Assembly: GCF_000974785.1 (NCBI RefSeq)
Contig: NZ_BBWV01000001.1
Coordinates: 1,736,001 to 1,800,000, forward strand
Reading direction: 5' to 3'
Length of the DNA: 64,000 nt
DNA from: Flavihumibacter petaseus NBRC 106054
GTDB taxonomy: Bacteria > Bacteroidota > Bacteroidia > Chitinophagales > Chitinophagaceae
Part shown: positions 38,494-54,274 of the stretch, piece by piece
How positions within the stretch are numbered: position 1 is the stretch's first letter
How the letters are laid out: every line of letters begins with the position of its first letter
Made by a program: the position numbers and the translations under genes
Notes under the pieces: model-generated
The model's database searches: none
Told to the model about the DNA's origin: nothing
The model's input: only the letters and a program-made list of their open reading frames with translations

Positions 38494-40173
38494 ATGCCAA
38501 ATACATTTGTAATCGGCGTGGATTACGGAACTGATTCTGTGCGTTCTGTGATTGTGGACACTGCCGATGGAACCGAGATTGCTGCTGCCGTATTTGAATA
38601 TCCCCGCTGGAGGGACGGCTTGTATTGTGACCCTGCTGCCAGTCGTTTCCGGCAGCACCCCCTGGATTATATAGAAGGACTCGAAACAACAGTAAAATCC
38701 TGTTTACGGCAGGCGGGTGCATCCGTTGCTGCCGGGGTAAAAGCTATTTCAGTGGACACCACTGGAAGTTCGCCTGTGGCGGTAGACCGTCATGGTGTGC
38801 CGTTGGCCCTTTTGCCTGAGTTTGAGCAGAATCCGAACGCCATGTTTGTGCTCTGGAAGGATCATACTTCCCTGAAAGAAGCGGCTGAAATCAATGCCCA
38901 TGCAACCCGTTACGATATTAATTACCTGCAATATGTAGGTGGTATCTATTCTTCAGAGTGGTATTGGGCCAAGTTGCTGCATGTGTTGCGGGAGGATTCT
39001 GCCATACGTGCAGCCTGTTATTCCTGGGTGGAACACTGTGACTGGGTTCCATTCCTGCTGACTGGTGGCCAGTCGGCAGATACCATGCGCCGGGGAGTTT
39101 GCAGTGCGGGTCATAAAGCACTTTGGTCGGCTGCGTATGGCGGGATGCCGCCCAATTCCTTCTTTACCGATCTCGACCCCCTGCTGGATGGCTACCGGGA
39201 TCGCGCATTTGAGCAGACTTACGCTGCAGACCAGGCTGCAGGAAGACTTTCTGCCGAATGGGCAGCGCGGCTCGGGCTGGATGAATCTGTTGTGGTAGGA
39301 ATCGGCGCATTTGATGCGCATATGGGTGCGGTGGGTGGACAAATTGAACCCTATCACCTCAGTAAAGTGATGGGGACTTCCACCTGCGACATGCTCGTAG
39401 CGCCGGTAACAGAAGTACAGGATCTGCTGGTGCGCGGTATTTGCGGCCAGGTACCCGGTTCCGTTATTCCAGGGATGATGGGGATGGAAGCCGGACAATC
39501 CGCTTTCGGAGATGCGTACGCGTGGTTCCGCAAGACCATCACGGGTTATACCGGACAATTGTTACGACAATCCGCCCAGATTGACAGTGTACTGGCAGCA
39601 GCGTTGGAAAAAGAAATGAACGATCGGTTTATCGTGGATATTTCTGAAAAAGCAGCGGCGTTGTCGTTGACTGCGCAGGATGAGCTCGCGCTGGACTGGC
39701 TGAACGGCCGGCGGACGCCAGATGCCGACCAGGAGCTGAAAGCCGCAATCACCGGTTTGAGCCTGGGAACGGATGCGCCCAGAATTTTCCGTGCGATTGC
39801 TGAGGCAACCTGTTTCGGTGCCCGGGCAATTGTGGATCGTTTCCGGGATGAAGGAGTTCCTGTAAAGGGATTGATTGGTCTTGGCGGCGTTGCCAGGAAA
39901 TCTCCCTACATCATGCAAATGATGGCTGACGTCATGCAGATGCCATTGCGGATTCACCGGTCGGAACAGACCTGTGCAGCAGGAGCCGCCATGTTTGCCG
40001 CCACGGCAGCCGGCATTTATCCAAATGTTGAAGCGGCAATGGATAAAATGGGGCAAGGCTTTGACATGATCTATGAACCCCGCCCTGCTGAAAGTGCCTA
40101 TTATGCGAAGCGTTATCAGCGCTATCATCACCTGGGCAAATATATTTCCAGCCATCAGACCAAAACAAACTGA
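38494..40173 (+). CDS. araB: Ribulokinase
   Basis: A 559-residue FGGY kinase: VIGVDYGTDSVRSVIVDT at the start, SVDTTGSSPV, VGIGAFDAHMGAVGGQ, LIGLGGVARKSPYIMQMMADV. Length and the DYGTDSVRS motif match bacterial AraB rather than xylulokinase or glycerol kinase. It phosphorylates L-ribulose to L-ribulose 5-phosphate. It opens the catabolic block after 117 bases that probably carry a promoter and operator. Followed by araD 2 bases later. Confidence 0.96.
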   Translation: MPNTFVIGVDYGTDSVRSVIVDTADGTEIAAAVFEYPRWRDGLYCDPAASRFRQHPLDYIEGLETTVKSCLRQAGASVAAGVKAISVDTTGSSPVAVDRHGVPLALLPEFEQNPNAMFVLWKDHTSLKEAAEINAHATRYDINYLQYVGGIYSSEWYWAKLLHVLREDSAIRAACYSWVEHCDWVPFLLTGGQSADTMRRGVCSAGHKALWSAAYGGMPPNSFFTDLDPLLDGYRDRAFEQTYAADQAAGRLSAEWAARLGLDESVVVGIGAFDAHMGAVGGQIEPYHLSKVMGTSTCDMLVAPVTEVQDLLVRGICGQVPGSVIPGMMGMEAGQSAFGDAYAWFRKTITGYTGQLLRQSAQIDSVLAAALEKEMNDRFIVDISEKAAALSLTAQDELALDWLNGRRTPDADQELKAAITGLSLGTDAPRIFRAIAEATCFGARAIVDRFRDEGVPVKGLIGLGGVARKSPYIMQMMADVMQMPLRIHRSEQTCAAGAAMFAATAAGIYPNVEAAMDKMGQGFDMIYEPRPAESAYYAKRYQRYHHLGKYISSHQTKTN

Positions 40174-40175
40174 CC

Positions 40176-40874
40176 ATGACTTATGCTTTGATCCGCGAGG
40201 AAGCTTATGCCGCGAACATGCAGCTGCCTGAACTCGGGCTGGTGCTTTTTACTTTTGGAAATGTCAGCGCTGCAGACCGGCAGGCCGGTGTATTCGCTAT
40301 TAAGCCCAGCGGCGTTCCCTATGCCAATCTTCGTCCGGAAGATATGGTAGTGGTCGACTTTGATGGCAAATTGGTGGATGGAAATCTGCGTCCTTCATCA
40401 GATACCCTGACCCATGCAGTTTTGTACAAGCATTGGGAACATGTGGGTGGTATCTCCCACACGCATTCCGTTTATGCAACTGCCTGGGCACAATCCGGCA
40501 GGGATATTCCCCTGTTTGGAACTACACATGCGGATCACCTTACCGTGGATGTTCCCTGTGCGCCACCGATGGAAGACGAGAAGATTCGCGGTGATTATGA
40601 ATATGAAACCGGTTTCCAGATCTTGCGGTGTTTTAAAACCCGCCAGCTGGATCCCCGCGAAGTGGAAATGATCCTTGTGGGCAATCATGCACCTTTTACC
40701 TGGGGGAAAACAGCAGCAAAGGCCGTTTATCATAGTGCCGTTCTTGAGACAGTTGCCAAAATGGCACTGCTGACGGAGCAGATCAACCCCGAGGCACTTC
40801 GCATGAAAGAATCCCTTATCCGCAAACATTTCGAACGCAAACACGGCCCGGACTCCTATTACGGACAGGCTTAA
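40176..40874 (+). CDS. araD: L-ribulose-5-phosphate 4-epimerase
   Basis: A 232-residue class II aldolase-fold enzyme. Family hallmarks are FGNVSAADRQ, AIKPSGVPYANL, SSDTLTHAVLYK, and the zinc histidines in ISHTHSVYATAWAQS and FGTTHADH. It converts L-ribulose 5-phosphate to D-xylulose 5-phosphate, the exit to the pentose phosphate pathway. Full length for AraD and placed between araB and araA with 2 and 17-base gaps, so clearly one operon. Confidence 0.96.
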   Translation: MTYALIREEAYAANMQLPELGLVLFTFGNVSAADRQAGVFAIKPSGVPYANLRPEDMVVVDFDGKLVDGNLRPSSDTLTHAVLYKHWEHVGGISHTHSVYATAWAQSGRDIPLFGTTHADHLTVDVPCAPPMEDEKIRGDYEYETGFQILRCFKTRQLDPREVEMILVGNHAPFTWGKTAAKAVYHSAVLETVAKMALLTEQINPEALRMKESLIRKHFERKHGPDSYYGQA

Positions 40875-40891
40875 AATTATAAAACAAGCAT

Positions 40892-42391
40892 ATGAAAGCA
40901 TTTCAGCAGGCTGAGGTCTGGTTTGTAACCGGCAGTCAGCATTTGTACGGAGAAGAGACGTTGAAACAGGTAGCGGCGCACTCACGGGAGATCGCAAATG
41001 CCCTTCAGGCAGCACCCGGTGTTTCTGTTAATGTGGTATACAAGCCGGTGGTTAAAACTCCGGATGAGATCTTCAGCCTCTGCCAGGAAGTGAATCAGAG
41101 CAGGAATTGTATCGGCATCATTGCCTGGATGCATACTTTCTCCCCGGCGAAGATGTGGATCAGTGGCCTGAAGATCCTGCAGAAGCCGCTGCTTCACCTG
41201 CACACTCAATTTAACCGTGATATTCCCTGGGCACAGATTGATATGGACTTTATGAACCTGAACCAGAGTGCACATGGAGATCGTGAATTTGGATTTATCA
41301 TGAGCAGGATGCGGTTACGCCGTAAAGTGGTAGTGGGTCACTGGCAGGACCCTGAAGTGCTGACCCGCATTGATGTTTGGGCGAGGGCGGCAGCAGCCTA
41401 TAACGACTGGAAGACGGCAAAATTTGTTCGCTTTGGTGACAACATGCGCCAGGTTGCGGTTACTGAGGGTGATAAGGTAGAGGCGGCAATCAAGTTCGGT
41501 TACAGCGTTGACACCCATGGTATCGGTGACCTGGTGAAGGTGATCAGCCAGGTGTCCGACACTGAAGTGGAGCAGCAGATGGAAGTTTACGGCGACGCGT
41601 ATACGCTGACTGAAGGCCTCCTGAAAGGGGGTGTGCAGCGGCAGTCTCTTGCCGACGCTGCCCGTATCGAACTGGGTATGAAGACTTTCCTGGAAGCCGG
41701 CGGATACAGCGGATTCACAGATACATTTGAAGACCTGCACGGCATGAAGCAATTACCGGGAATTGCCACCCAGCGCCTGATGGCGGCGGGCTATGGTTTC
41801 GGCGGAGAGGGTGACTGGAAGACTTCTGCCTTGGTACGGGCGATGAAAGTGATGGCAACCGGCCTTCCCGGTGGTAACTCTTTTATGGAGGACTACACCT
41901 ATCATTTTGACCCTTCCAATAAAATGGTGTTGGGTTCGCACATGTTGGAAATCTGCCCGTCTATTGCAAACGGAAAACCAAGGTGTGAGATTCACCCCCT
42001 GGGAATTGGTGGCAAGGAAGACCCAGTACGTCTGGTGTTTAATGTGGCTGCGGGTGCCGCGTTGAATGCCTCTGTGATCGACATGGGTAACCGATTTCGG
42101 TTGCTGGTAAATACAGTAGATGCAGTTGAACCGCAGCATGATCTTCCCAAATTGCCCGTGGCAAGGGTACTCTGGAAGCCTCATCCCGATATGCAAACCG
42201 GCTGCGGCGCGTGGATACTGGCCGGTGGAGCACATCATACCTGTTATAGTCAGAACCTGACCCAGGAGCATCTGGAGGACTTTGCAGACATGCTACAGAT
42301 TGAATATGTTTTGATAGGAAAAGAGACAAATCTCTATCAATTCAAGAACGAATTGCGGTGGAGTGACGTATATTACCATCTTAATTCTTAA
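40892..42391 (+). CDS. araA: L-arabinose isomerase
   Basis: A 499-residue AraA, the normal length. [17 protein letters not shown] at the start, [47 protein letters not shown], then [36 protein letters not shown], and [10 protein letters not shown] are the enzyme signature, including Mn-binding glutamates and histidines. It isomerises L-arabinose to L-ribulose. Third catabolic gene in the araBDA order. Confidence 0.97.
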
Positions 42392-42414
42392 GCTAAAACT
42401 CTTTACTGGCCAAC

Positions 42415-44103
42415 ATGAACAAGTATCTTTCGATTGCAGACGTTGCCGTTTTCCTCATCTATCTGATAGTAGTAGGCTCATACGGATACTGGATTTACAC
42501 CCGCAAGAAAAAAGCGGTTACCGATACCAAAGACTTCTTCCTCGCGGAAGGTTCACTCACCTGGTGGGCCATTGGCGCCTCCCTGATCGCTTCCAATATT
42601 TCTGCCGAGCAGTTTATTGGCATGAGTGGTAATGGATTTTTTGTGGGTATTGCTGTTGCCGCTTATGAGTGGCTGGCAGCCATTGCCCTGATCATCATTG
42701 CGGTCTGGTTCATTCCGATCTACCTGAAGAACAAGATTTATACGATGCCACAGTTCCTGAAGATGCGGTATAATGAAACCGTGGCGCTGATCATGGCGAT
42801 CTTCTGGTTGTTCCTCTATGTATTTGTGAACCTTACCTCAATTCTTTACCTGGGTGCCATTGCCATCAATGGATTGCTGGGTGGTGAATATCTCCACACA
42901 GTCATGATTGCCCTGGCAATTGCGGCCATCCTGATCACATTGGGTGGTATGAAGGTTATTGGTTATACGGATGTAATCCAGGTTGCGGTGCTGATCATCG
43001 GCGGATTGGCCACTACTTATATGGCGCTATCCATCGTTGGCGAAAAATTTGGTGTGGGAGCTGATGCGATCGCTGGTTTCAAAGTGCTGCTCAAAGATGC
43101 GCCGGAGCATTTTCATATGATCCTGGACAAGCCGACTGCGGCCTCGTCGCAGGAGGATGTCAATAAATACCTGATTCTCCCCGGAATATTAATGTATATC
43201 GCGGGACAATGGATAGTGAACCTGAACTACTGGGGTTGTAACCAGTACATTACCCAGCGGGCGCTGGGGGCTGATCTGCAGACCGCCCGTACCGGTATTT
43301 TGTTTGCGGGTATGCTGAAGCTCATGATGCCCGTAATCGTAATGCTTCCCGGTATTGCGGCTTATGTGCTGTACAAGAATGGTCACCTGCCCCAGCTGGT
43401 GGGCGGCATGGACGGCGCCTATTCAGCAGTACTTGGCTTCCTGCCTTCAGGTTTGAAAGGCCTTTCCGTAGCAGCACTGACAGCAGCCATTGTGGCTTCA
43501 CTGGCAGGCAAGGCCAATAGTATCTCCACGATCTTCACGCTGGATATCTATAAAAAATACATGAATAAGGAGGCCGATGAAGCCAAAATGGTTTGGACCG
43601 GCCGGATGGTCGTGTTGTTTGCGATGATTATTGCCATCCTTTTTACCTGGAATGATCTTCTGGGGATAGGCAGTGCAGGCGGATTTACCTTTATCCAGAA
43701 ATATACCGGCTACATCAGTCCGGGTGTATTTGCCGTATTTATCCTTGGTATGTTCTGGAAACGCACTACTGGAGCCGCTGCTGTCGTGGGAATCCTGCTC
43801 GGATTTGCATTGTCCGTATTTTTCAACGAATTTGCGCCCTTGCTTTTCGGAAACGAAACCTGGCTGTATACCGCTTACTACAACAGTGATGCGAAAGCTT
43901 ACCAGATTCCATTCCTGATCTGTATGGGCTTTGCGTTCTTCTTCACCGTGCCGGTGATGGTAGCGATGAGCCTGACTGGTCCGAAAATTAATCCGAAAGC
44001 ATTTGATCATGAGCCGGGCATGTTTAAAGTGAAGCCAACGACCCTTGTGCAAATAGTGGTTACATTGCTCATTCTCATGGCACTTTATGTGAAATTCTGG
44101 TAA
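42415..44103 (+). CDS. Sodium/sugar cotransporter (SSS/SGLT family)
   Basis: A 562-residue inner-membrane transporter with 13-14 spans: ADVAVFLIYLIVVGSYGYW onward, the SSS consensus TDTKDFFLAEGSLTWWAIGASLIASNISAEQFIGMSG, and WIVNLNYWGCNQYITQRALGA plus LAGKANSISTIFTLDIYKKY. Its position 24 bases after araA indicates arabinose uptake coupled to sodium. No ABC arabinose importer is encoded here, so this is the expected entry route for the monosaccharide. Confidence 0.95.
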   Translation: MNKYLSIADVAVFLIYLIVVGSYGYWIYTRKKKAVTDTKDFFLAEGSLTWWAIGASLIASNISAEQFIGMSGNGFFVGIAVAAYEWLAAIALIIIAVWFIPIYLKNKIYTMPQFLKMRYNETVALIMAIFWLFLYVFVNLTSILYLGAIAINGLLGGEYLHTVMIALAIAAILITLGGMKVIGYTDVIQVAVLIIGGLATTYMALSIVGEKFGVGADAIAGFKVLLKDAPEHFHMILDKPTAASSQEDVNKYLILPGILMYIAGQWIVNLNYWGCNQYITQRALGADLQTARTGILFAGMLKLMMPVIVMLPGIAAYVLYKNGHLPQLVGGMDGAYSAVLGFLPSGLKGLSVAALTAAIVASLAGKANSISTIFTLDIYKKYMNKEADEAKMVWTGRMVVLFAMIIAILFTWNDLLGIGSAGGFTFIQKYTGYISPGVFAVFILGMFWKRTTGAAAVVGILLGFALSVFFNEFAPLLFGNETWLYTAYYNSDAKAYQIPFLICMGFAFFFTVPVMVAMSLTGPKINPKAFDHEPGMFKVKPTTLVQIVVTLLILMALYVKFW

Positions 44104-44124
44104 TTTAGAAGTTATACGACTGCG

Positions 44125-44814
44125 ATGTCTAGAATCGAATACAAAAACTATGATCGCTTTTTGCTGGCAGTAGATTGCATCATTTTCGGTTTCGATGGAA
44201 ATAGTTTAAAAGCCCTGCTGATCAAGCGGGGCTTTGAACCTGAAAAGGGGAAGTGGTCACTGATGGGCGGTTTTGCCGCCCAGGACGAAAGCATTGATCA
44301 GGCAGCTGGCAGGATCCTGCTGAACCTGACCGGACTGGACCAGATCTACATGGAGCAATTGCATTGCTTCGGTGAGGTCGATCGCGATCCGGGTGGAAGG
44401 GTTATTTCCCTGGCATATTTCGCATTGATCAAAATTGATGATTCCGATGGCGAAAAGCTGGAACAGCATAATGCCAAATGGGTAGACCTGCGGAAGCTGC
44501 CCGCGCTGATCTTTGATCATCGCCAGATGATCCGGCTGGCTAAGGAGCGGTTGCAGCAAAAGGTATCCAATCACCCGATTGGGTTTGAGTTGCTGCCACA
44601 TAAGTTTACCTTGCAGCAGTTGCAGGCCCTGTATGAAGCCGTTTATGAAACGAATTTCGACAAGCGCAACTTTACCCGGAAGATATTGTCCCTCGGCGTT
44701 TTACAGCGGCTTGACGAAAAGGAAAAAGCTTCGTCGAAGAAAGGCGCTTTTTACTATGTGTTTGATAAAAAGAAATATAAACGCCTGGAAAGCGAGGGCA
44801 TCAAATTTATCTGA
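44125..44814 (+). CDS. araR: Nudix-fold transcriptional regulator of arabinose genes (AraR-like)
   Basis: A 229-residue protein with an N-terminal Nudix fold and a C-terminal winged helix (LTLQQLQALYEAVYETNFDKRNF onward), the layout of NrtR and Bacteroidota AraR. In the Nudix box, GGFAAQDESIDQAAGRILLNLTGL lacks the catalytic REUXEE residues, so it is very likely a ligand sensor, not a hydrolase. By family analogy it senses L-arabinose and derepresses or activates this cluster. It ends the sugar operon 22 bases after the transporter. Confidence 0.88.
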   Translation: MSRIEYKNYDRFLLAVDCIIFGFDGNSLKALLIKRGFEPEKGKWSLMGGFAAQDESIDQAAGRILLNLTGLDQIYMEQLHCFGEVDRDPGGRVISLAYFALIKIDDSDGEKLEQHNAKWVDLRKLPALIFDHRQMIRLAKERLQQKVSNHPIGFELLPHKFTLQQLQALYEAVYETNFDKRNFTRKILSLGVLQRLDEKEKASSKKGAFYYVFDKKKYKRLESEGIKFI

Positions 44815-45649: not shown

Positions 45650-48600
45650 ATGAGAAAGATTACAAACAGGTGCCTCAGGCACTTGTGGTTACTCTTATTG
45701 CTCTGCTTTCCGCTTCTTATGCAGGCACAGCAAACGTTATCCGGTAAAATAGTATCACAGAAAGATCAGGCACCGGTTTCCGGTATTACCGTTACCATAA
45801 AGGGCGGTAAGAAAGGCACAGCGTCCGGTGTTGACGGCAGCTTCCAGCTGGCCGCAAAAGCCGGTGATGTGCTGGTGATATCGGGCGTTGGCATTACCAC
45901 GCAGGAAGTAACTGTGGGAGATGATGGACGCATAACCATTGCCGTCAATCAGGCAGCCAACGCACTGAATGAAGTGGTGGTGACAGCACTGGGAGTAAAG
46001 AAAGACAAGAAAAAAGTTGGATATGCAACCCAGGAAGTAAAAGGGGAAGACCTGGTGAAAGCCCGGGAGCCTAATGCCATCAATGGTTTGGTGGGGAAGG
46101 TTTCTGGACTTACCGTTGGCGCATCACCCGAACTGCTGGGCAACCCGAATGTACTGTTGCGCGGTACGGGAATCACCCTGTATGTTGTTGATGGTGTTCC
46201 GATCAACTCGGATACCTGGAATATTTCACCTGATGATATTGAATCCTATACCGTACTCAAGGGGGCGACAGCTTCTGCGCTGTACGGTTATCGCGGGCAG
46301 AATGGCGCGATCATGATCACCACGAAAAGAGGTTCAAAAGACAGGCGCGGGTTTTCCATTGAGTTTAACAGCAGTACAATGTTCGAAAAAGGATTCAATG
46401 CAATTCCCAGGACCCAGGATATGTATGGCCCCGGTGATCACGGTAAATATGCTTTTGTTGATGGAAAGGGTGGTGGCACCAATGACGCAGACTATGATGT
46501 TTGGGGACCTAAGTTTGAAGGTCAGCTGATACCCCAATACGATTCTCCGATTGATCCTCAGACCGGCGAACGTATCCCCACACCATGGGTCGCCCGTGGC
46601 AAAGATAACCTCGAGCGCTTCCTGCAGACAGGGTTGTTGTCTACAAACAGTATTGCCATTTCTTCCAAGTCTGACAAGTCTGATCTGCGTTTCGGTATTG
46701 CTCACAGTTACCAGAAGGGTATCGTCCCCAATACTCAACTGAATATTACAAACTTCAATTTTTCAGCCGGGTATAATTTTAGTGACAAGCTCCGACTGGA
46801 ATCTTATATCAACTACAATCGGCAGTATACGCCTAATATTCCGGATGTTACCTATGGTCCGAATAGTATGATTTATAATATCACGATCTGGGCAGGGGCG
46901 GACTGGAACGTTGACGACATGCGGAATTACTGGCAGCCAGGTAAGGAAGGCGTTCAATCAATCTATGCGGAGTATCAGCGTTACCACAATCCTTATTTCA
47001 TGAGTTATGAATGGTTACGCGGACATTATAAGAATGATGTGAACGGAAACCTGAAGCTGACCTACAAGCTTAACAACAATATCGATTTCCATTTGCGTAC
47101 ACAGGTTACCACATATGACCTGCTGCGCACGGAGAAAATGCCCTTTAGTGCTCACCCTTATGGACGGGAAGAAGGTCTGGGTGACTACAGGGAAGACAGA
47201 AGAGCGCTTTTCGAAAATAATACCGACTTCCTCGCAACCTATAACAAGAACAAGCTGGTTGGGGACATAAGCCTGCGTGCATCGGTGGGTGGAAACGCCC
47301 GTTCGTTCAAATACAGCAGCAGCTACGTTAGTACCGATTACCTCAATGTGCCGGAGTTGTATACGTTCACTAATAGCAGAAATCCTATCAAAGCCAGTAA
47401 TTTCCGTTCAGACATGCTTGTGTTGAGTGGCTATGGCTATGTAGACATTGGGTTCAGCAAGTATGCCAACCTTTCTCTGACGGGCCGCGTAGATAAACTC
47501 TCAACACTGCCACAGGGAAACAACACCTACTTCTACCCCTCGGCCGCACTCAGCACCGTAGTGAGTGACTATCTCGAACTTCCTGATTTTATTTCTTTCC
47601 TGAAATTCCGTGGATCATATGCCAACGTAAAAGGAGGACTGACCAGCGCAACCATCGGAGCTACTCCGGGCGCGTCGTATCCTGTTGGTTATGGCATGCA
47701 GTATTATTCCTCTTACGAGGGTCCATCATATCAAAACTCTTCGATTTACAGTACGCCGATTGTATATGATAATAAAGCTGGTGCATATTATACCCCCACA
47801 ATTAACAACCCAAACATTCAGCCTTTTACGAGCAAAGCACTGGAAATAGGTGTTGATGTGAGGTTTCTGCAAAACCGTCTTGGTTTTGATGTAACTCACT
47901 TTGTTAACAACGATGGCCCTGGCATTTACCTGTTGCCGCGTTCGGAAGCAACCGGATTCACTAGTGAGCTGGCAAATGGAGTTAAGACAAAAAAAACCGG
48001 TTGGGAAGTAACAGCTACTGGTGTGCCACTTCGTAGTGCAAAAGGATTAAACTGGAACATCATGGCAAACTGGTCAACCTTCACAGAAAAGTTCACCAGT
48101 TTCTTTCCAGATGTTGATGTTTACAAGACCTATTTCAGAGCAGGTGACCGGGTTGACAAACTGTATGGATCTGCGTTTGTAAGAACACCCGATGGACAGA
48201 TAATAAATGATGCCGGTGGTCGCCCTTTGCGCTCTCCAGTTGCACAGTATTTAGGTAATGGTAACCCTGATTGGGTTTGGTCTATGATCAACAACTTTTC
48301 ATATAGAGGAATCAGCCTGGGCTTTCAGTTCGATGGTCGGGTAGGAGGTCATATGGTCAATTACATCCAGCAGCAGACTTACCGTGGTGGCCGCCATATC
48401 AATACCGTAGAAGGAAAGATGGGAGAAGCGCGTTACCAGGACTATCTTGGTGTGAAATCGTGGATGGGCGAGGGTGTTGTTGTGAGCAACGGAGCAGCAA
48501 TTGAATATGATGTGGATGGTAAAGTGACCAACTACAAAGACCTGCAATATGCGCCGAACACCATAAAAACCTATCTGCAGGACTATATCAGTTTCTTCTA

Positions 48601-48859
48601 CAATACCAATGAAGCAAATATTATTGAAAAGACATTTAGCAAACTTCGTGAAGTAACGATAGGTTACAGCATTCCTCAGCAGGTATTAGTTAAAAGCTTT
48701 ATCAAGCAGGCGTCTATCACACTGGTGGGCCGCAATCTCCTCTACTTTTCCAAATATAAGGACGTTGACATCGATCAGTATGCCAACTCCACTATGAGTT
48801 CTTCGCTTCAAACACCAACTACCAAAAGGTATGGCGTAAATATTAACCTTACTTTTTAA
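45650..48859 (+). CDS. SusC/RagA-type TonB-dependent transporter
   Basis: A 1069-residue outer-membrane receptor. Signal peptide LWLLLLLCFPLLMQAQ, a carboxypeptidase-regulatory-like N-terminal domain (LSGKIVSQKDQAPVSGITVTI), the TonB-box region (NEVVVTALGVKKDKKKVGYATQEV), plug (VLLRGTGITLYVVDGVPINSD) and a 22-strand barrel ending GVNINLTF. SusC proteins import large ligands with the SusD lid. It is first in an operon with SusD and a PhnZ-like oxygenase (8-base spacing to the latter), so its ligand is more likely a phosphonate-containing molecule than a glycan. Confidence 0.95.
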   Translation: MRKITNRCLRHLWLLLLLCFPLLMQAQQTLSGKIVSQKDQAPVSGITVTIKGGKKGTASGVDGSFQLAAKAGDVLVISGVGITTQEVTVGDDGRITIAVNQAANALNEVVVTALGVKKDKKKVGYATQEVKGEDLVKAREPNAINGLVGKVSGLTVGASPELLGNPNVLLRGTGITLYVVDGVPINSDTWNISPDDIESYTVLKGATASALYGYRGQNGAIMITTKRGSKDRRGFSIEFNSSTMFEKGFNAIPRTQDMYGPGDHGKYAFVDGKGGGTNDADYDVWGPKFEGQLIPQYDSPIDPQTGERIPTPWVARGKDNLERFLQTGLLSTNSIAISSKSDKSDLRFGIAHSYQKGIVPNTQLNITNFNFSAGYNFSDKLRLESYINYNRQYTPNIPDVTYGPNSMIYNITIWAGADWNVDDMRNYWQPGKEGVQSIYAEYQRYHNPYFMSYEWLRGHYKNDVNGNLKLTYKLNNNIDFHLRTQVTTYDLLRTEKMPFSAHPYGREEGLGDYREDRRALFENNTDFLATYNKNKLVGDISLRASVGGNARSFKYSSSYVSTDYLNVPELYTFTNSRNPIKASNFRSDMLVLSGYGYVDIGFSKYANLSLTGRVDKLSTLPQGNNTYFYPSAALSTVVSDYLELPDFISFLKFRGSYANVKGGLTSATIGATPGASYPVGYGMQYYSSYEGPSYQNSSIYSTPIVYDNKAGAYYTPTINNPNIQPFTSKALEIGVDVRFLQNRLGFDVTHFVNNDGPGIYLLPRSEATGFTSELANGVKTKKTGWEVTATGVPLRSAKGLNWNIMANWSTFTEKFTSFFPDVDVYKTYFRAGDRVDKLYGSAFVRTPDGQIINDAGGRPLRSPVAQYLGNGNPDWVWSMINNFSYRGISLGFQFDGRVGGHMVNYIQQQTYRGGRHINTVEGKMGEARYQDYLGVKSWMGEGVVVSNGAAIEYDVDGKVTNYKDLQYAPNTIKTYLQDYISFFYNTNEANIIEKTFSKLREVTIGYSIPQQVLVKSFIKQASITLVGRNLLYFSKYKDVDIDQYANSTMSSSLQTPTTKRYGVNINLTF

Positions 48860-48877
48860 CCGTTCAAGTATAACAAC

Positions 48878-50440
48878 ATGAAAAGGATAACCACCATACT
48901 TCCGATCACCATTGCAGTGCTGGCAGTTTTCAGTGGGTGCAACAAGAAAATGGAAGAATATGAACAGAATCCGAATGGCGCGGAAAGTGTGAATTCCGCG
49001 CTGATATTCAGAGGCATTGCCAGCGACATGAATAATGACGAGCCCTGGAGTCTGATCAGCCGCTGGAATCAGTTTGACTGTTGTAATTATAACTATTACG
49101 GTGATCAGCGATATGACTGGACAGGTGCATCACTAAATTACCTGACTTTGGAGAATGTACAGAAAATGGAAGAGGAAGCTGCTAAAAGGGGATTACCTGC
49201 GATAAATCCTTATGCTGCAATTGGTAAATTCCAACGCGCTTTCTTTTTCTATCGCATGACAAGTCTGGTAGGCGATCTTCCGCTCACGGAAGCGCTAAAA
49301 GGAAAAGACAACGTGCATCCGGCATATGATACACAAAAGTCCATTTTTCAACAGATATTGACTTGGCTGGACGATGCCAATAATGAACTGACACAATTGC
49401 TCACCACTGGAGATAAATCGCTGGATGGAGACATTTATTATGATAATGATTTGCGTCAGTGGCAGAAGGCAGTGAACTCCTTCCGGCTTCGGGTAATCAT
49501 CGCCCTTAGCAAGAAAATTGACGATGGCGACCTGAACCTGAAATCCCAACTGGCGAATATCGTTTCGGACAAATCAGGCTACCCGATTTTCGAAAGCAGC
49601 GACGATGATCTGCAGTATATCTATAGCTCCTTCAACAAGTATCCGTCCAATCCGGACAATCTGGGATTCGATGCAACCCGGTATAATATGTCTGCCACCT
49701 ACCTAGACAACCTGGTAATGTTAAAGGACCCCCGGACGTATATAACGGCAGAACCAGCCACTTACCAGTTGAGAACCAATCACAAAACACCTTCAGATAT
49801 TACAGCATATGTAGGTGCACCCAGTGGTGAAGACCTGGCCAATATGTCAAGCAAGATGTCTGATGTTGACAACGCAGCCTATTCCGTTCGCAGCCGCGGG
49901 CGTTACTACAGTTCTTATTCAGCTGAGCCGGGCATTCTTATTGGTTTTGCGGAACAATGCTTTAACATTGCAGAAGCGATCAATCGGGGATGGATAAACG
50001 GAGACGCAGAAGAGTACTATAAGAAAGGAATCAAAGCTTCACTCCGGTTTTATGGCGTGCCGGTTGATGCTCCTGGTACAGTCTCGAAGAACTATGATGG
50101 CATGAACTATTCCATTCCCTTTGATTTTGAAGGGGTTTACTATCAGCAGCCTACTGTTAAATACAAAGGAAATTCACCTGTCGGATTGAAACAGATCCTG
50201 ATGCAGAAATACCTGGCATTTTTCCAGGGGTCCGGATGGGAGGCCTATTTCAACTGGCGCCGGACAGGAATTCCTGAATTTTCTACCGGTGTCGGAACTG
50301 GCAATAGTGGTGTGATTCCCAAGCGTTTTCAGTATCCGGTAAGTGAGCGGGACAATAACACCGAAAATAACGCCAAAGCGGTGTCTGACCAGTATGGCGG
50401 AAGCGATGATATAAATGCAAGCATGTGGCTGATCAAATAA
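48878..50440 (+). CDS. SusD/RagB-type substrate-binding lipoprotein
   Basis: A 520-residue surface lipoprotein (signal ending AVLAVFSGC, Cys21) with TPR-like helices of SusD: FQRAFFFYRMTSLVGDLPLTEAL, DDANNELTQLL and WQKAVNSFRLRVIIALS, and the C-terminal YQQPTVKYKGNSPVGLKQILMQKYLAFFQG region. It belongs to the SusD-like group of the nutrient-binding outer-membrane lipoproteins and forms the lid of the SusC barrel 18 bases upstream. Ends 8 bases before the HD gene. Confidence 0.93.
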   Translation: MKRITTILPITIAVLAVFSGCNKKMEEYEQNPNGAESVNSALIFRGIASDMNNDEPWSLISRWNQFDCCNYNYYGDQRYDWTGASLNYLTLENVQKMEEEAAKRGLPAINPYAAIGKFQRAFFFYRMTSLVGDLPLTEALKGKDNVHPAYDTQKSIFQQILTWLDDANNELTQLLTTGDKSLDGDIYYDNDLRQWQKAVNSFRLRVIIALSKKIDDGDLNLKSQLANIVSDKSGYPIFESSDDDLQYIYSSFNKYPSNPDNLGFDATRYNMSATYLDNLVMLKDPRTYITAEPATYQLRTNHKTPSDITAYVGAPSGEDLANMSSKMSDVDNAAYSVRSRGRYYSSYSAEPGILIGFAEQCFNIAEAINRGWINGDAEEYYKKGIKASLRFYGVPVDAPGTVSKNYDGMNYSIPFDFEGVYYQQPTVKYKGNSPVGLKQILMQKYLAFFQGSGWEAYFNWRRTGIPEFSTGVGTGNSGVIPKRFQYPVSERDNNTENNAKAVSDQYGGSDDINASMWLIK

Positions 50441-50448
50441 TACATCCT

Positions 50449-51033
50449 ATGCAAACACCAGAAGCTGTAACCCGGGAAATATTTACCCTGTTTGAATTGC
50501 AGGGTGCAAAGGAATATGCCGGTGAAAAGGTATCGCAGCTGGAACACATGTACCAGGCGGCAATACTGGCTATGGAAGAAGGCTGTGAGGACGAAATCGT
50601 CCTTGCGGCCTTCCTGCATGATATCGGACACTTGCTGCCGTCAGAGGAAACAGTGATGACAGGTACTGACGGGAAGCACTATGGCGTAACCGACCATGAG
50701 CAACTGGGCGCGGACTGGCTTCAGCGGCGCGGGGCAGGAGAACGCATGTGCAAACTGATCGCGTCACATGTTACAGCCAAACGCTACCTGACTTTTGCTG
50801 ATCCGCTTTATTACAATCAGTTATCCGAAGCCAGCAAACAAACACTCACCCTGCAGGGTGGTGTAATGACAGCTGCCGAAGCTGCGACGTTTGAGGCGGA
50901 TGACCTGTTCGAGTGGTATATCAGGATGCGCCGATGGGACGAAGCGGCCAAGGAGCAGCATCAGCCTGTTGATCAACTTAAGCTGCTGGAACAGAAATTG
51001 TATCAGTACCTGAAAAACAGGGCGGAAGCTTAG
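50449..51033 (+). CDS. PhnZ-like HD-domain phosphonate oxygenase
   Basis: A 194-residue HD protein. I choose ATG 50449, 8 bases after susD. The longer frame from 50425 would overlap SusD. The sequence EYAGEKVSQLEHMYQAA keeps Y23 and E26, matching the substrate-gating Tyr24/Glu27 of PhnZ (recalled numbering). The HD metal ligands are H33, H57-D58, H83 and H107, with YGVTDHEQLGAD, HVTAKRYL and WDEAAK following as in PhnZ. PhnZ is a mixed-valence di-iron oxygenase that cleaves the C-P bond of (R)-1-hydroxy-2-aminoethylphosphonate to glycine and phosphate. No PhnY-type hydroxylase is present, so the substrate may arrive hydroxylated or differ. Confidence 0.85.
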   Translation: MQTPEAVTREIFTLFELQGAKEYAGEKVSQLEHMYQAAILAMEEGCEDEIVLAAFLHDIGHLLPSEETVMTGTDGKHYGVTDHEQLGADWLQRRGAGERMCKLIASHVTAKRYLTFADPLYYNQLSEASKQTLTLQGGVMTAAEAATFEADDLFEWYIRMRRWDEAAKEQHQPVDQLKLLEQKLYQYLKNRAEA

Positions 51034-51066
51034 TCAGGCAGGATAAGATTCAACCGACAATACAAA

Positions 51067-51100
51067 AACGGGCTTTCATTTGAAAGCCCGTTCTGTTTTT
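51067..51100. terminator. Bidirectional terminator at the phosphonate locus
   Basis: A perfect 12-bp stem (51067-51078 with 51081-51092) with a 2-base loop, then CTGTTTTT on the plus strand and a run of A before it, so it can end both the SusC-SusD-HD operon and the converging three-gene operon. Confidence 0.88.
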
Positions 51101-51118
51101 GTGGACGGTTGCTGTTGA

Positions 51119-51844
51119 CTATAATACAATTGGTGTGGATTCCCTGAGGTGTTTTTCGAGATATTGGCGGAATGCTGCCATGGAGCCGAAGGTCAGATCT
51201 GCTGAAAACGGGTCAAGTTGTTCCGCTGAATGGGTACCATTGGTTACACAGCAGGAATATAAGACACCGGCATTTTTACCTGACTGTATATCCGACGGGG
51301 TGTCACCAATATTGATCACTGCCTTACGGTCTTTGATACCGGCAATGTCCATTGCTTTACGGATCATGTCCGGTTCAGGTCTTCCTTTGGCCACTTCATC
51401 GCTTGCGATGGAAATATCAACAATGCCATCCCGCATCCAGCCGAGTTTCCCCAGGATGATATCAACGACTTTCCTGTAAAATCCGGTTGTCAGCGCGATG
51501 GTAACACCTTTTTCATGGAGGAAGCTGAACAGATCAAGGCAGCCTTCGGTTGGCGTGATGGGGTGGTGCAGGTAATGCTCTTCGAGGATGTTACGAAACA
51601 AAGCATAGGATGCATCAACCTGGTGATTCCATTCATCTGTTCGTCCACCGATTTGCCGTTCCCAGAAGGTTTCAAATACATGTCGCTTTGACCAACCCTG
51701 TACCGAAAGGATCTCATCGTCGGTTATGTCAAGTCCGCTTTTTCGGGCGCTGATCGAAAAGCACATTTCCACCTCATGGTTGTCGGTTACAGTGGTTCCT
51801 GCCATGTCGCAGACCACCAGTTTCAGTTCCTGCATTGGTTTCAT
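51119..51844 (-). CDS. PhnX-like phosphonatase (HAD, TIGR03351 type)
   Basis: A 241-residue HAD hydrolase with CDMAGTTVTD at the start (nucleophile D13; the second Asp is Ala, the signature of phosphonatases such as PhnX). K53 in GWSKRHV occupies the same number as the Schiff-base lysine of Bacillus cereus PhnX (K53), an agreement that favours true C-P hydrolysis of an aldehyde such as phosphonoacetaldehyde. Other motifs: ALTTGFYRKV, KGRPEPDMIRKAM and NIGDTPSDIQSGKNAG. Last gene of a minus-strand operon, coupled to the FAD enzyme by a 1-base overlap. Confidence 0.86.
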   Translation of the reverse strand: MKPMQELKLVVCDMAGTTVTDNHEVEMCFSISARKSGLDITDDEILSVQGWSKRHVFETFWERQIGGRTDEWNHQVDASYALFRNILEEHYLHHPITPTEGCLDLFSFLHEKGVTIALTTGFYRKVVDIILGKLGWMRDGIVDISIASDEVAKGRPEPDMIRKAMDIAGIKDRKAVINIGDTPSDIQSGKNAGVLYSCCVTNGTHSAEQLDPFSADLTFGSMAAFRQYLEKHLRESTPIVL

Positions 51845-53001
51845 CAGTCAAATATTTTATGGATGTTTGCTTCTGCCAATCCTGCGCTGGCGGTCATGCC
51901 TTTTCCGCCAATGGCGGTCACCACCCAGATCTCCTTTTCTATTTCCTCCATAAACAAGTCATGACTTTTTCTCTGGGCATAATAGCCATTCCATTGCCGG
52001 GTAATGTTCCAATGCGGCAGGCGGAAGATCCGTTGTGCTTCTTCCAGGATAATATCATTGATCACCTGTTTATTGTCGTACCCAAGCTGACCGGCATGCG
52101 CGGCATCGGCGTATTCATGGGAATCGCCAATGATAATGCTTCCGTCCAGCGTCTGTTTGAACAGGATGTGAATACCCCATTTGCCACAGGGTTCAGTGAT
52201 CGCGGCAGCGTCGAGTTTTTTGAAAGAGGGGCATTCCCGGAAACTTTCGTAGCGGCGGATGCTCAGACCGCTGAGAATGGATCCTTTCAGGCTGATTTCC
52301 GGCATCGGCGCGGTACACATCATTTGCAGCTTGGAGACTTCTATATCACTGTTATAAAAACGCTCGGGAAATAGCGCACTGAAATCACGGCCATTGCAGA
52401 TGATTACGTTACCGGCAGTATAAACATTGCCGGTGCCGGTTTCTACACTACAGTGATCTCCTTTGTTCTGTACGGACCTGACCAGCGTCAACGGTTTGTA
52501 TTTCAAAGCCATTTGTTCCTGCATACAGGCGATCAGCCGGTGGATCATCTTATGTGGTTCCACCGTTATCTCATCCGGAAAGAAAAGCCCGCCCACACAA
52601 TAGGACGCCCGAAGTCCCGGATATTTTTCAAGGCAGGTTTCCTTGTCAAGCAACTGGGAAGAATATCGCTGTATTCTGTTGATCGCCGACAATTCTTCCA
52701 GCAGGGTCATTTCTGTACTGTCGGATGCAAGGTATATTGTTCCGTTATGGCGCACAGAAATATCAAATTTCGACTGGATGTCCTTATATATTTCCAGGCT
52801 ACGGCGGCCGTAGTCCTGCCATTTTCCCACGCCCATGCCTGAAGGCACTACTTGTCCAAAATTGCGGACAGTTGCTTCCATAGGCTTTTCGTCCTTTTCC
52901 AGCAACAGCACATTCAACCCTTTCCTGCAGGCGTGATAAGCATGGAAGGCGCCCAATGCACCCGCACCTACGATAATGCAATCGAAATGTTCAGAGCGCA
53001 T
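51844..53001 (-). CDS. FAD-dependent oxidoreductase of phosphonate loci (TIGR03364 type)
   Basis: A 385-residue DAO-fold flavoprotein: IIVGAGALGAFHAYHACRKG at the N-terminus and VRNFGQVVPSGM, a motif I associate with the TIGR03364 group linked in genomes to phosphonatases. TIGR03364-like enzymes have been proposed to deaminate aminophosphonates, and related PbfC/PbfD enzymes act on N-methylated 2-aminoethylphosphonate. Which of these applies here is unknown. One-base overlap with the PhnX-like gene and 11-base overlap with DUF5690 imply coupled translation. Confidence 0.85.
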   Translation of the reverse strand: MRSEHFDCIIVGAGALGAFHAYHACRKGLNVLLLEKDEKPMEATVRNFGQVVPSGMGVGKWQDYGRRSLEIYKDIQSKFDISVRHNGTIYLASDSTEMTLLEELSAINRIQRYSSQLLDKETCLEKYPGLRASYCVGGLFFPDEITVEPHKMIHRLIACMQEQMALKYKPLTLVRSVQNKGDHCSVETGTGNVYTAGNVIICNGRDFSALFPERFYNSDIEVSKLQMMCTAPMPEISLKGSILSGLSIRRYESFRECPSFKKLDAAAITEPCGKWGIHILFKQTLDGSIIIGDSHEYADAAHAGQLGYDNKQVINDIILEEAQRIFRLPHWNITRQWNGYYAQRKSHDLFMEEIEKEIWVVTAIGGKGMTASAGLAEANIHKIFD

Positions 53002-54274
53002 GATGCAGTTTTTTGTGTGAAAAATAACGCCAGCTTCCCAATACCGAAATTAACCCTACCCCGCCAAATATCAGGCTGAGGCCGACGAAATATGGGAACC
53101 AGTTTAGTTGTGGATTGAACAATTCTTTATAAAGAATAAGTATACAGCTGCCGAGATAGCCGATTGAGTCCATCAGGTAAAAGAAGAAACCGATGTTGCC
53201 CTTGACCTTGTATGCGGCAATAAATCGTTCAAGGAAAAGGCACTGAATGCAATTGTAGCTGATGTATAATCCGACCGTGTAAGTAATCATCAAGGCGATC
53301 GGATCGCCGATACGCTCATGCAGGAAGAATGCAACGAGAAGGATAGTAAGGAATCCCAGGGCAATGGCGAGGTGTTGCCTTTGCAGGCTTTTGAAGTGAT
53401 TGCCGATCCCCGCGAGCGTGAGTAGCGCAAAGAAGACCGCGATGGCAGCAACGGTTTCCATCCTGGTGAAGAGCAGCGCAGAAGCATCCGGGCGGACCTG
53501 CCGGACGATCTCCACCGCAAAATTGTCTTTTACATCCCGCAGAATGGTTAAAAGCAAATTCATTACGATCACAGCAAACAGACCGGGAAGAAAGGTTTGC
53601 AAAATTGCCATTCGATTCCTGCCGTCCAGGGCCGGTCGTTCGCCACGCTGCTGTATCTCTTCAGGAGTGGCAGCCGGGATACGGGACAGCAAGTACACAG
53701 AAATAAATAGTAACGGCAGAAAAAAACAGCCCGTCACAAAAGGCATCATCATTTCGGAGATGCCGAGATTTTTCATGGCAAGTAATCCAACTGATTTAAC
53801 AGCGCCGGAGCTGAAGATGAAATTGATGCTGAGCACCAATGCCACCATATCAGTGTACCGCCGTCCTTCAATATAACTGAACACGAGCCCCCAGATGAGT
53901 CCCAGGCATAAGCCATTGCCAAAGAGGAACAGGGTATTCCAGGGTAGTGGTACTAGCGCCATGAGCAAGAGGCAAAGGTGTGCAGACAGGATCAACAAAA
54001 GAATATTCATTGCCCGCCTGTTGGGATTCAAATTTGCAATGAAGCGTATTCCTAAGAACTTGGATGTCATATAGCCAAGCACCTGGGCAATTACCAACGC
54101 TGATTTAAACGAGATTCCGAAAGCCTGGAGGTGATCCCATGTGCCGGCACTGATTGCTTTGCGGAAACCATACATACAGAAGTAGGTGCTGAAGCACGCA
54201 ACTGCCGCAAGCCAGACGACAGACCTGCTGGTGCCGCCTGCTGATATATCGGAAGTGTTGGGCATGTACGCCAT
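52991..54274 (-). CDS. DUF5690 MFS-like membrane permease
   Basis: A 427-residue protein with about 12 spans. The first helix segment FSTYFCMYGFRKAISAGTW has the aromatic-Arg-Lys turn seen in organophosphate:phosphate antiporters (GlpT/UhpT-like). It shows no binding-protein or ATPase partner. It is first in the phosphonate operon, so a role as inner-membrane aminophosphonate or phosphate antiporter is an attractive inference. Starts Met-Ala-Tyr-Met; a start at the second Met is possible. Confidence 0.75.
   Translation of the reverse strand: MAYMPNTSDISAGGTSRSVVWLAAVACFSTYFCMYGFRKAISAGTWDHLQAFGISFKSALVIAQVLGYMTSKFLGIRFIANLNPNRRAMNILLLILSAHLCLLLMALVPLPWNTLFLFGNGLCLGLIWGLVFSYIEGRRYTDMVALVLSINFIFSSGAVKSVGLLAMKNLGISEMMMPFVTGCFFLPLLFISVYLLSRIPAATPEEIQQRGERPALDGRNRMAILQTFLPGLFAVIVMNLLLTILRDVKDNFAVEIVRQVRPDASALLFTRMETVAAIAVFFALLTLAGIGNHFKSLQRQHLAIALGFLTILLVAFFLHERIGDPIALMITYTVGLYISYNCIQCLFLERFIAAYKVKGNIGFFFYLMDSIGYLGSCILILYKELFNPQLNWFPYFVGLSLIFGGVGLISVLGSWRYFSHKKLHHAL

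Follow-up and report, generated by a model that had tools for sequence, protein, structure and literature searches.

A candidate phosphonate utilisation locus with its own SusC/SusD pair

The stretch examined here (the window) comprises 64,000 nucleotides (contig NZ_BBWV01000001.1, positions 1,736,001 to 1,800,000) of the genome of Flavihumibacter petaseus NBRC 106054, a soil-type member of the Chitinophagaceae (Bacteroidota), and holds two convergent operons, one coding for a SusC/SusD outer-membrane pair and a PhnZ-like HD protein, the other for a DUF5690 protein that is predicted to belong to the major facilitator superfamily (MFS), a TIGR03364-type FAD enzyme and a PhnX-like HAD protein (Table 1). 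In our judgement these genes quite probably make up a phosphonate utilisation locus, in which SusC/SusD would import the cargo, esters would be cleaved in the periplasm, DUF5690 would act as the carrier and the remaining three genes would supply carbon-phosphorus (C-P) enzymes. Gene identities assigned by family models, candidate catalytic residues, a linkage that is conserved across families and predicted folds are the computed basis; from these we infer phosphonate import by SusC/SusD, the ester form of the cargo, the cargo of DUF5690 and the substrates of the three enzymes.

All genes lie where the preliminary description of this DNA had placed them. It had described SusC, SusD and HD as one close-spaced unit, and indeed the gaps are 18 bases (SusC to SusD) and 8 bases (SusD to HD), taking the ATG at 50449 as the HD start; an alternative start, the GTG at 50425, would overlap SusD. 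On the opposite strand, the convergent and overlapping operon that had been read as DUF5690, a TIGR03364 FAD enzyme and a PhnX-like HAD is supported by the family models and by the presence of D13 and K53, and its genes overlap by 1 base (HAD/FAD) and 11 bases (FAD/DUF5690). The terminator said to be common to both operons was also recovered, as a hairpin with 11 pairs on the + strand (51067-51092) and 13 on the - strand (51094-51065), which scored highest among the 21 terminator-like sites of the scan (shuffled controls: mean 11.0).

Table 1. Features of the two convergent operons (positions within the window)
Feature	Position	Strand	Evidence
SusC-type TonB-dependent transporter, 1069 aa	45650..48859	+	TIGR04056 427 bits, cut-off 368
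SusD-like lipoprotein, 520 aa	48878..50440	+	PF12771 229 bits, E 1.5e-67; PDB SusD homologue 3ejn, E 1e-64
PhnZ/TmpB-type HD protein, predicted di-iron oxygenase, 194 aa	50449..51033	+	TIGR03276; PDB 4mlm
Bidirectional intrinsic-terminator-like hairpin between the two operons	51065..51094	both	T-rich tails both ways
PhnX-like HAD hydrolase, 241 aa, D13 and K53	51119..51844	-	TIGR03351; PDB 2iof
TIGR03364 FAD oxidoreductase, PbfD type, 385 aa	51844..53001	-	TIGR03364 393 bits, cut-off 285
DUF5690, predicted MFS inner-membrane transporter, 427 aa	52991..54274	-	PF18943 425 bits

The only PDB matches of the HD protein at E <= 0.001 were PhnZ (4mlm, E 9e-33) and TmpB (6npa, E 2e-26), and its best NCBIfam model was TIGR03276, with 197.5 bits, under the curated cut-off of 214.6. 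Many relatives likewise fall below that cut-off, which is exceeded in 16 of the 294 Chitinophagaceae genomes searched. Eleven candidate active-site residues, none of them conserved in fewer than 165 of the 166 HDs aligned, are invariant in a 16-sequence HD alignment, and they include the metal ligands as well as the Tyr/Glu and Lys/Arg residues of PhnZ. For the HAD protein the best model was TIGR03351, at 175.5 bits under a curated cut-off of 218.9 (three relatives checked against it gave 167-198 bits), and its PDB match was PhnX (2iof, E 5e-14). D13 and K53, presumably the nucleophile Asp and the Schiff-base Lys, are each conserved in 82 of 83 linked HADs. The FAD enzyme exceeds the curated cut-off of its model (Table 1). 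Two enzymes of the same type, PbfD1 and PbfD2, are reported to oxidise N-methyl-2-aminoethylphosphonate and, less well, 2-aminoethylphosphonate (AEP) to phosphonoacetaldehyde (PMC10590968).

PhnZ itself acts on (R)-HAEP (PMC10574752). There is no 2-oxoglutarate (2OG) hydroxylase among the six window genes, and the two PhyH genes of the genome, considered as PhnY* partners for HD, were rejected: they are unlinked, and one scores 45 bits against the PhnY cut-off of 500 while the other gave no match. Since no hydroxylase partner was found, the substrate of HD is probably already hydroxylated when imported.

Conservation of the linkage across Bacteroidota

A neighbourhood survey of SusC/SusD genes beside the HD and FAD families had been set beforehand as a test, and the adjacency turned out to be conserved. 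Searching 294 Chitinophagaceae genomes with TIGR03276 gave matches in 88 at E <= 0.001 and in 81 at E <= 1e-25; neighbourhoods were taken from the window and 79 other HD genomes (G252 was left out), HD being called in 77 loci. Because the 63 SusC signature matches in the 5.69 Mb host genome put many genes near one of them, plain distance to SusC was dropped as a measure, and adjacency was scored as SusC or SusD within the same-strand gene run of HD. By this measure 67 of the 77 loci were positive, with three further runs ending at a contig edge, as opposed to 7 of 374 unlabelled control genes (at least 150 residues, outside the HD run, from the same stretches) that had SusC or SusD in their own run. 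Positive loci were observed in 36 of the 41 Chitinophagaceae genera with a called HD locus, and the usual order, judged by eye, is SusC, SusD, a phosphodiesterase or other gene, HD, HAD, DUF5690 and FAD, all in one direction.

In a phylum sample outside Chitinophagaceae, SusC was found within 8 kb in all 10 HD loci, and SusC or SusD shared the run of HD in eight. The order of genes differs there: in Mucilaginibacter (L159, L199) HD, SusC, SusD, phosphodiesterase and GDPD diverge from a regulator, HAD, DUF5690 and FAD, and loci of the Cytophagales type (L191, L202, L211) place SusC/SusD beyond FAD and DUF5690. A further version is carried by a 125-kb plasmid of Hymenobacter sp. NBH84 (NZ_CP043649.1; L288, 8678-22771), where an MFS gene, HD, SusC, SusD, a sulfatase-like phosphodiesterase, a second phosphatase, HAD, a regulator with helix-turn-helix and cupin domains and a TIGR03364 FAD enzyme adjoin IS3-family, PhoX and Na/Pi symporter genes. 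Instead of DUF5690 the plasmid codes for a plain MFS_1 protein. Between the plasmid SusC and the one in L145, which clusters with Mucilaginibacter, there is 71% identity. Given the rearranged orders in other families and the plasmid copy, the whole set seems to move between genomes and to be put back together as one unit. Adjacency by chance, which we also considered, was rejected in view of the control genes and of these rearranged orders.

None of 51 Pseudomonas HD loci had SusC, SusD or DUF5690 within 8 kb, and 42 of them had the FAD gene. In some versions outside Chitinophagaceae a PHP-domain gene adjoins DUF5690 (L202, 7051-7881; L141, 12873-13730).

Another phosphonate locus in the host genome

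The phosphodiesterase found in sister operons has one strong match in the host genome (46% identity, E 1e-96), and it was this match that located a second locus (L237, 3985-16950; contig C20, 787985-800950). Here a helix-turn-helix and cupin regulator, SusC, SusD, PhnA, phosphonoacetaldehyde dehydrogenase, the phosphodiesterase, an FAD enzyme, DUF5690 and PhnW all run in one direction, and three of the products exceed curated cut-offs, namely PhnA (511 bits, cut-off 408), phosphonoacetaldehyde dehydrogenase (684, cut-off 636) and PhnW (494, cut-off 401). The FAD enzyme is not of the TIGR03364 type, having no NCBIfam match at 1e-40 and only 24% identity to that of the window. Among the SusC proteins compared, the best match of the second-locus SusC was the window SusC (45% over 1057 residues). 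The second locus thus ties SusC/SusD and DUF5690 to C-P metabolism without recourse to the HD protein. The preliminary description had the SusC/SusD pair importing a large phosphonate-containing molecule: a role in phosphonate use is well supported by the 36 genera, the other families and this second locus, while a large size of the cargo goes beyond what these data support.

DUF5690 and transport across the inner membrane

DUF5690 is present in 80 of the 81 Chitinophagaceae HD genomes as opposed to 133 of 294 overall (hypergeometric 1e-34), and in all 17 HD genomes of the phylum sample as opposed to 42 of 395 (9e-19); neither value takes kinship into account, and the samples overlap in genomes. 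The sole HD genome without it, G196, has a divergent HD. In seven of eight sampled DUF5690 stretches that lacked an HD label, in-house profiles labelled C-P genes beside it, the eighth (L284) having none.

The AlphaFold model of the window protein (mean pLDDT 88) has a clear MFS fold. Among its best PDB matches by Foldseek were organophosphate antiporters (G6PT/SLC37A4 and SLC37A2, with GlpT at rank 15), and other MFS families, such as those of NorA and URAT1, had close E-values; by sequence, no PDB entry matched at E <= 1. Of the claim that the DNA has no phnCDE-type importer, the permease part holds for the whole genome, where PhnE (TIGR01097) gave no match at E <= 0.001, PhnC and PhnD not having been searched. 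With no PhnE in the genome, DUF5690 is likely to be the inner-membrane phosphonate carrier. Outside Bacteroidota, the DUF5690 profile also matches Caulobacter vibrioides, one of the control genomes. We found no paper naming DUF5690 in the open-access literature searched.

Ester hydrolases and the form of the cargo

The commonest accessory gene within 8 kb of HD codes for a 360-residue phosphodiesterase of the alkaline-phosphatase superfamily (56 of 77 loci), followed by beta-propeller plus PF04185 phosphoesterases (17) and GDPD (5). Asp and His positions are conserved in the phosphodiesterase, whose predicted fold resembles LtaS, YejM, sulfatases and NPP, i.e. that of the broad superfamily, which does not name a substrate (best model pLDDT 77.6, the other four 47-56); by sequence the protein had no PDB match. 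Hydrophobic N-termini of the exported type were scored by a simple rule in 72 of 74 phosphodiesterases, 26 of 30 propeller phosphoesterases and 10 of 10 GDPDs, a weak rule that also picks out the FAD enzyme, of cytoplasmic type, in 132 of 142 cases; on inspection, the N-termini of the phosphodiesterases do resemble signal peptides. PhnA and phosphonoacetaldehyde dehydrogenase, recognised by gene size and clustering, lie near HD in four loci (L077, L082, L086, L101), and the one representative of each that was run against its curated model exceeded the cut-off.

In a phosphonate, one of the substituents of phosphorus is already carbon, so a periplasmic phosphodiesterase would be useful only if the phosphonate arrives esterified. 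To judge from the hydrolases of sister operons, the cargo may therefore be a phosphonate ester.

Some further genes were noted beside these. In ten loci SusD and the phosphodiesterase are separated by a member of a protein family about 440 residues long (e.g. L054, 8066-9376; L043, 7247-8572), of which the L054 member matched nothing in Pfam or NCBIfam. Elsewhere in the host genome there are propeller plus PF04185 phosphoesterases at L238 (11712-14228) and L239 (9907-12498), the latter near a SusC and an alkaline-phosphatase-family gene. Window positions 38494-44814 hold open reading frames of 559, 232, 499 and 562 residues and, after them, one for a Nudix-like protein of 229 residues, a group that from size and sequence we guess to be an arabinose operon.

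The SusC family and its relatives away from HD

The window SusC is 71% identical to the HD-linked SusC of L059, and 31% identical to the best of 21 other SusC proteins of its own genome. In a FastTree phylogeny of 103 SusC (81 HD-linked, the 21 others of the host genome and that of the second locus, with relatives away from HD excluded), it falls within a clade of 58, made up of 57 HD-linked proteins and the second-locus SusC (support 100). A second clade holds 20 other HD-linked SusC (support 100), and the remaining four (L038, L068, L093, L105) are long or misplaced. The two types split within Flavihumibacter: L048, L052 and L152-L154 have the second, the window and G272 (SusC 75% identical) the first. 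Between L048 and the window, identity is 66% for HD, 62% for FAD and 64% for DUF5690, and HAD is labelled beside none of the five second-type loci. The outer-membrane pair thus seems, to judge from these sequences, to have been exchanged inside the genus.

Looking in the opposite direction, we surveyed 33 stretches around SusC relatives that are not beside HD (identities, where given, of 43-66%), of which ten had C-P, FAD or DUF5690 labels, five ester hydrolases only, four lay at a contig end and 14, with relatives of 43-58% identity, had neither kind of label. A Pfam search of these 14 revealed a tyrosine-phosphatase-family gene in two and an alkaline phosphatase in one, and one 270-residue gene gave no match. 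Around seven distant control SusC (39-41% identity) no C-P label was found, and the phosphodiesterase label was found beside six. This SusC type as a marker of phosphonate alone is therefore not upheld, and the family is better termed organophosphorus-linked, with phosphonate loci as one large part of it. In L258 (10887-11765) and L260 (10806-11630) the tyrosine-phosphatase-family gene (PF13350) follows the SusC relative with no C-P label, possibly another type of organophosphorus locus.

Alternative explanations

Several observations weigh against a phosphonate locus as set out above. Seven of the 77 HD loci (L056, L079, L094, L098, L105, L107, L109) have no SusC or SusD in the run and no contig end to account for it; in L098 both lie upstream, the run being interrupted by a 129-residue reverse open reading frame, and L107 and L109 have no other cassette gene within 8 kb of HD. 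SusC lies within 8 kb in 15 of the 27 named Bacteroidota loci, and DUF5690 in 23. The window operon itself has neither an ester hydrolase nor a regulator. To these one should add the scores of HD and HAD under their cut-offs, the ranking of NorA and URAT1 near G6PT, the weak N-terminus rule and the 14 unlabelled stretches, together with the missing C-P labels around the distant controls, and all of the support is computational. Finally, the purity of the phosphonate SusC clade is partly a matter of sampling, as the unlinked relatives of 43-58% identity were outside the tree.

We give an appreciable, if lesser, chance to an alternative, namely that the importer has a wider range, taking phosphate as well as phosphonate esters (phosphodiesters of nucleotides, lipids or glycans), and that the C-P enzymes only salvage the phosphonate fraction of a mixed pool. 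The 14 stretches with neither label, the five with ester hydrolases only, the phosphatase genes in three of the 14 and the phosphodiesterase beside six of the seven distant controls all fit such an importer, as do the phosphodiesterases reported for PusCD loci of Flavobacterium (PMC8115612). The SusC tree is no argument against it, since the unlinked relatives were left outside. On the other side, the steady partners of linked SusC are HD, FAD, HAD or DUF5690, and DUF5690 accompanies C-P genes in seven of the eight other stretches sampled.

One may also suppose that HD and HAD are general phosphohydrolases and that the locus recycles phosphate esters rather than C-P compounds. HAD proteins are often promiscuous, and both scores are below the curated cut-offs; we nevertheless regard this as very unlikely in view of the candidate PhnZ residues and the Lys53 position, conserved almost throughout, the FAD enzyme above its cut-off, the curated PhnA and phosphonoacetaldehyde dehydrogenase of sister loci and, in the second locus, PhnW as well. 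That SusC/SusD imports a glycan or other carbon source, the phosphonate genes being adjacent by chance or as leftovers, is suggested by the abundance of SusC in this genome and by one control SusC (L279, 41% identity) that precedes glucoamylase-, oxidoreductase- and ROK-family genes. It is extremely unlikely against an adjacency of 67 of 77 as opposed to 7 of 374, a set that persists, with its genes rearranged, in other families and on a plasmid, and the further C-P locus of this genome, which has SusC/SusD as well.

Proposed pathway

In the phosphonate utilisation that we prefer, SusC/SusD would bind the phosphonate and import it over the outer membrane with energy from TonB, most likely in ester-linked form, such as a phosphonolipid head group or a phosphonoglycan fragment. 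An exported phosphodiesterase of the alkaline-phosphatase superfamily, a propeller phosphoesterase or GDPD would then release the aminophosphonate in the periplasm; many sister operons have such genes, the window operon has none, and in this host the phosphodiesterase gene lies in the second phosphonate locus. DUF5690 would replace an ABC importer and move the free phosphonate over the inner membrane. Once in the cytoplasm, AEP or N-methyl-AEP would be converted to phosphonoacetaldehyde by the FAD enzyme of PbfD type, and the PhnX-like HAD would cleave this product, giving acetaldehyde and phosphate. The PhnZ-type HD oxygenase would cleave a 1-hydroxy-phosphonate, e.g. (R)-HAEP, to phosphate and glycine.

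Taking the loci together, we lean slightly towards a broader picture, that of a mobile phosphonate-ester cassette shared by several Bacteroidota families, in which intact diesters would be imported and cut by exported phosphodiesterases, DUF5690 would be the carrier, the back end would be interchangeable (PbfD-PhnX-PhnZ or PhnW-PhnY-PhnA) and the outer-membrane pair could be swapped within a genus. Phosphonates are a real part of organic phosphorus. If esterified phosphonates do come in through SusC/SusD, Bacteroidota of soil and freshwater could mine phosphonolipids and phosphonoglycans that would be beyond the reach of importers of free AEP, such as those with which one study of uptake is concerned (PMC8316502). 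DUF5690 would then have a testable role, and its presence beside this SusC type would serve as a sequence marker in genomes and metagenomes.

Comparison with known systems

The preliminary description had seen in this locus an extension of SusC/SusD use beyond glycans. There is a precedent: Lidbury et al. (2021) described SusCD-like complexes of Flavobacterium (PusCD) that are induced by phosphate depletion and co-localised with phosphomonoesterases, phosphodiesterases and phosphonate-degrading enzymes (PMC8115612). The general idea is thus not new, SusCD having been linked there to organic phosphorus, and this was the one close precedent among the titles listed by our searches of the open-access literature. 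No paper found there joined SusC, SusD, phosphonate and PhnZ, or SusD and phosphonoacetaldehyde, and the available portions of PMC8316502, PMC9671461 and PMC7029141 hold no link of SusC to phosphonate.

PusCD resembles the pair described here in being tied to organic phosphorus and in lying beside phosphoesterases, but it belongs to another Bacteroidota family, and the available text of PMC8115612 has one sentence on phosphonate enzymes and no set of HD, FAD, HAD and DUF5690; moreover, PusD1 and PusD2 have pf07980 and pf14322, whereas the window SusD has PF12771. In the AEP clusters of Zangelmi et al. (2023; PbfC/PbfD) a TIGR03364 FAD enzyme (PbfD1) likewise feeds phosphonoacetaldehyde to PhnX, but the text as available has no SusC/SusD, DUF5690 or exported ester hydrolase for them, and the main text contains neither "bacteroid" nor "outer membrane" (PMC10590968). 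The PhnY*/PhnZ and TmpA/TmpB pathways (PMC10574752) share an HD oxygenase with the same candidate residues, whereas the window set is without a 2OG hydroxylase and neither PhyH gene of the host comes close to PhnY. In Pseudomonas L156 the TIGR03364 FAD gene also adjoins HD, but at this locus, the one annotated with Pfam, the neighbours are ABC ATPase and permease genes together with a LysR regulator. Neither the conserved cassette that joins HD, FAD, HAD and DUF5690 to SusC/SusD nor any role for DUF5690 was found in the open-access literature searched.

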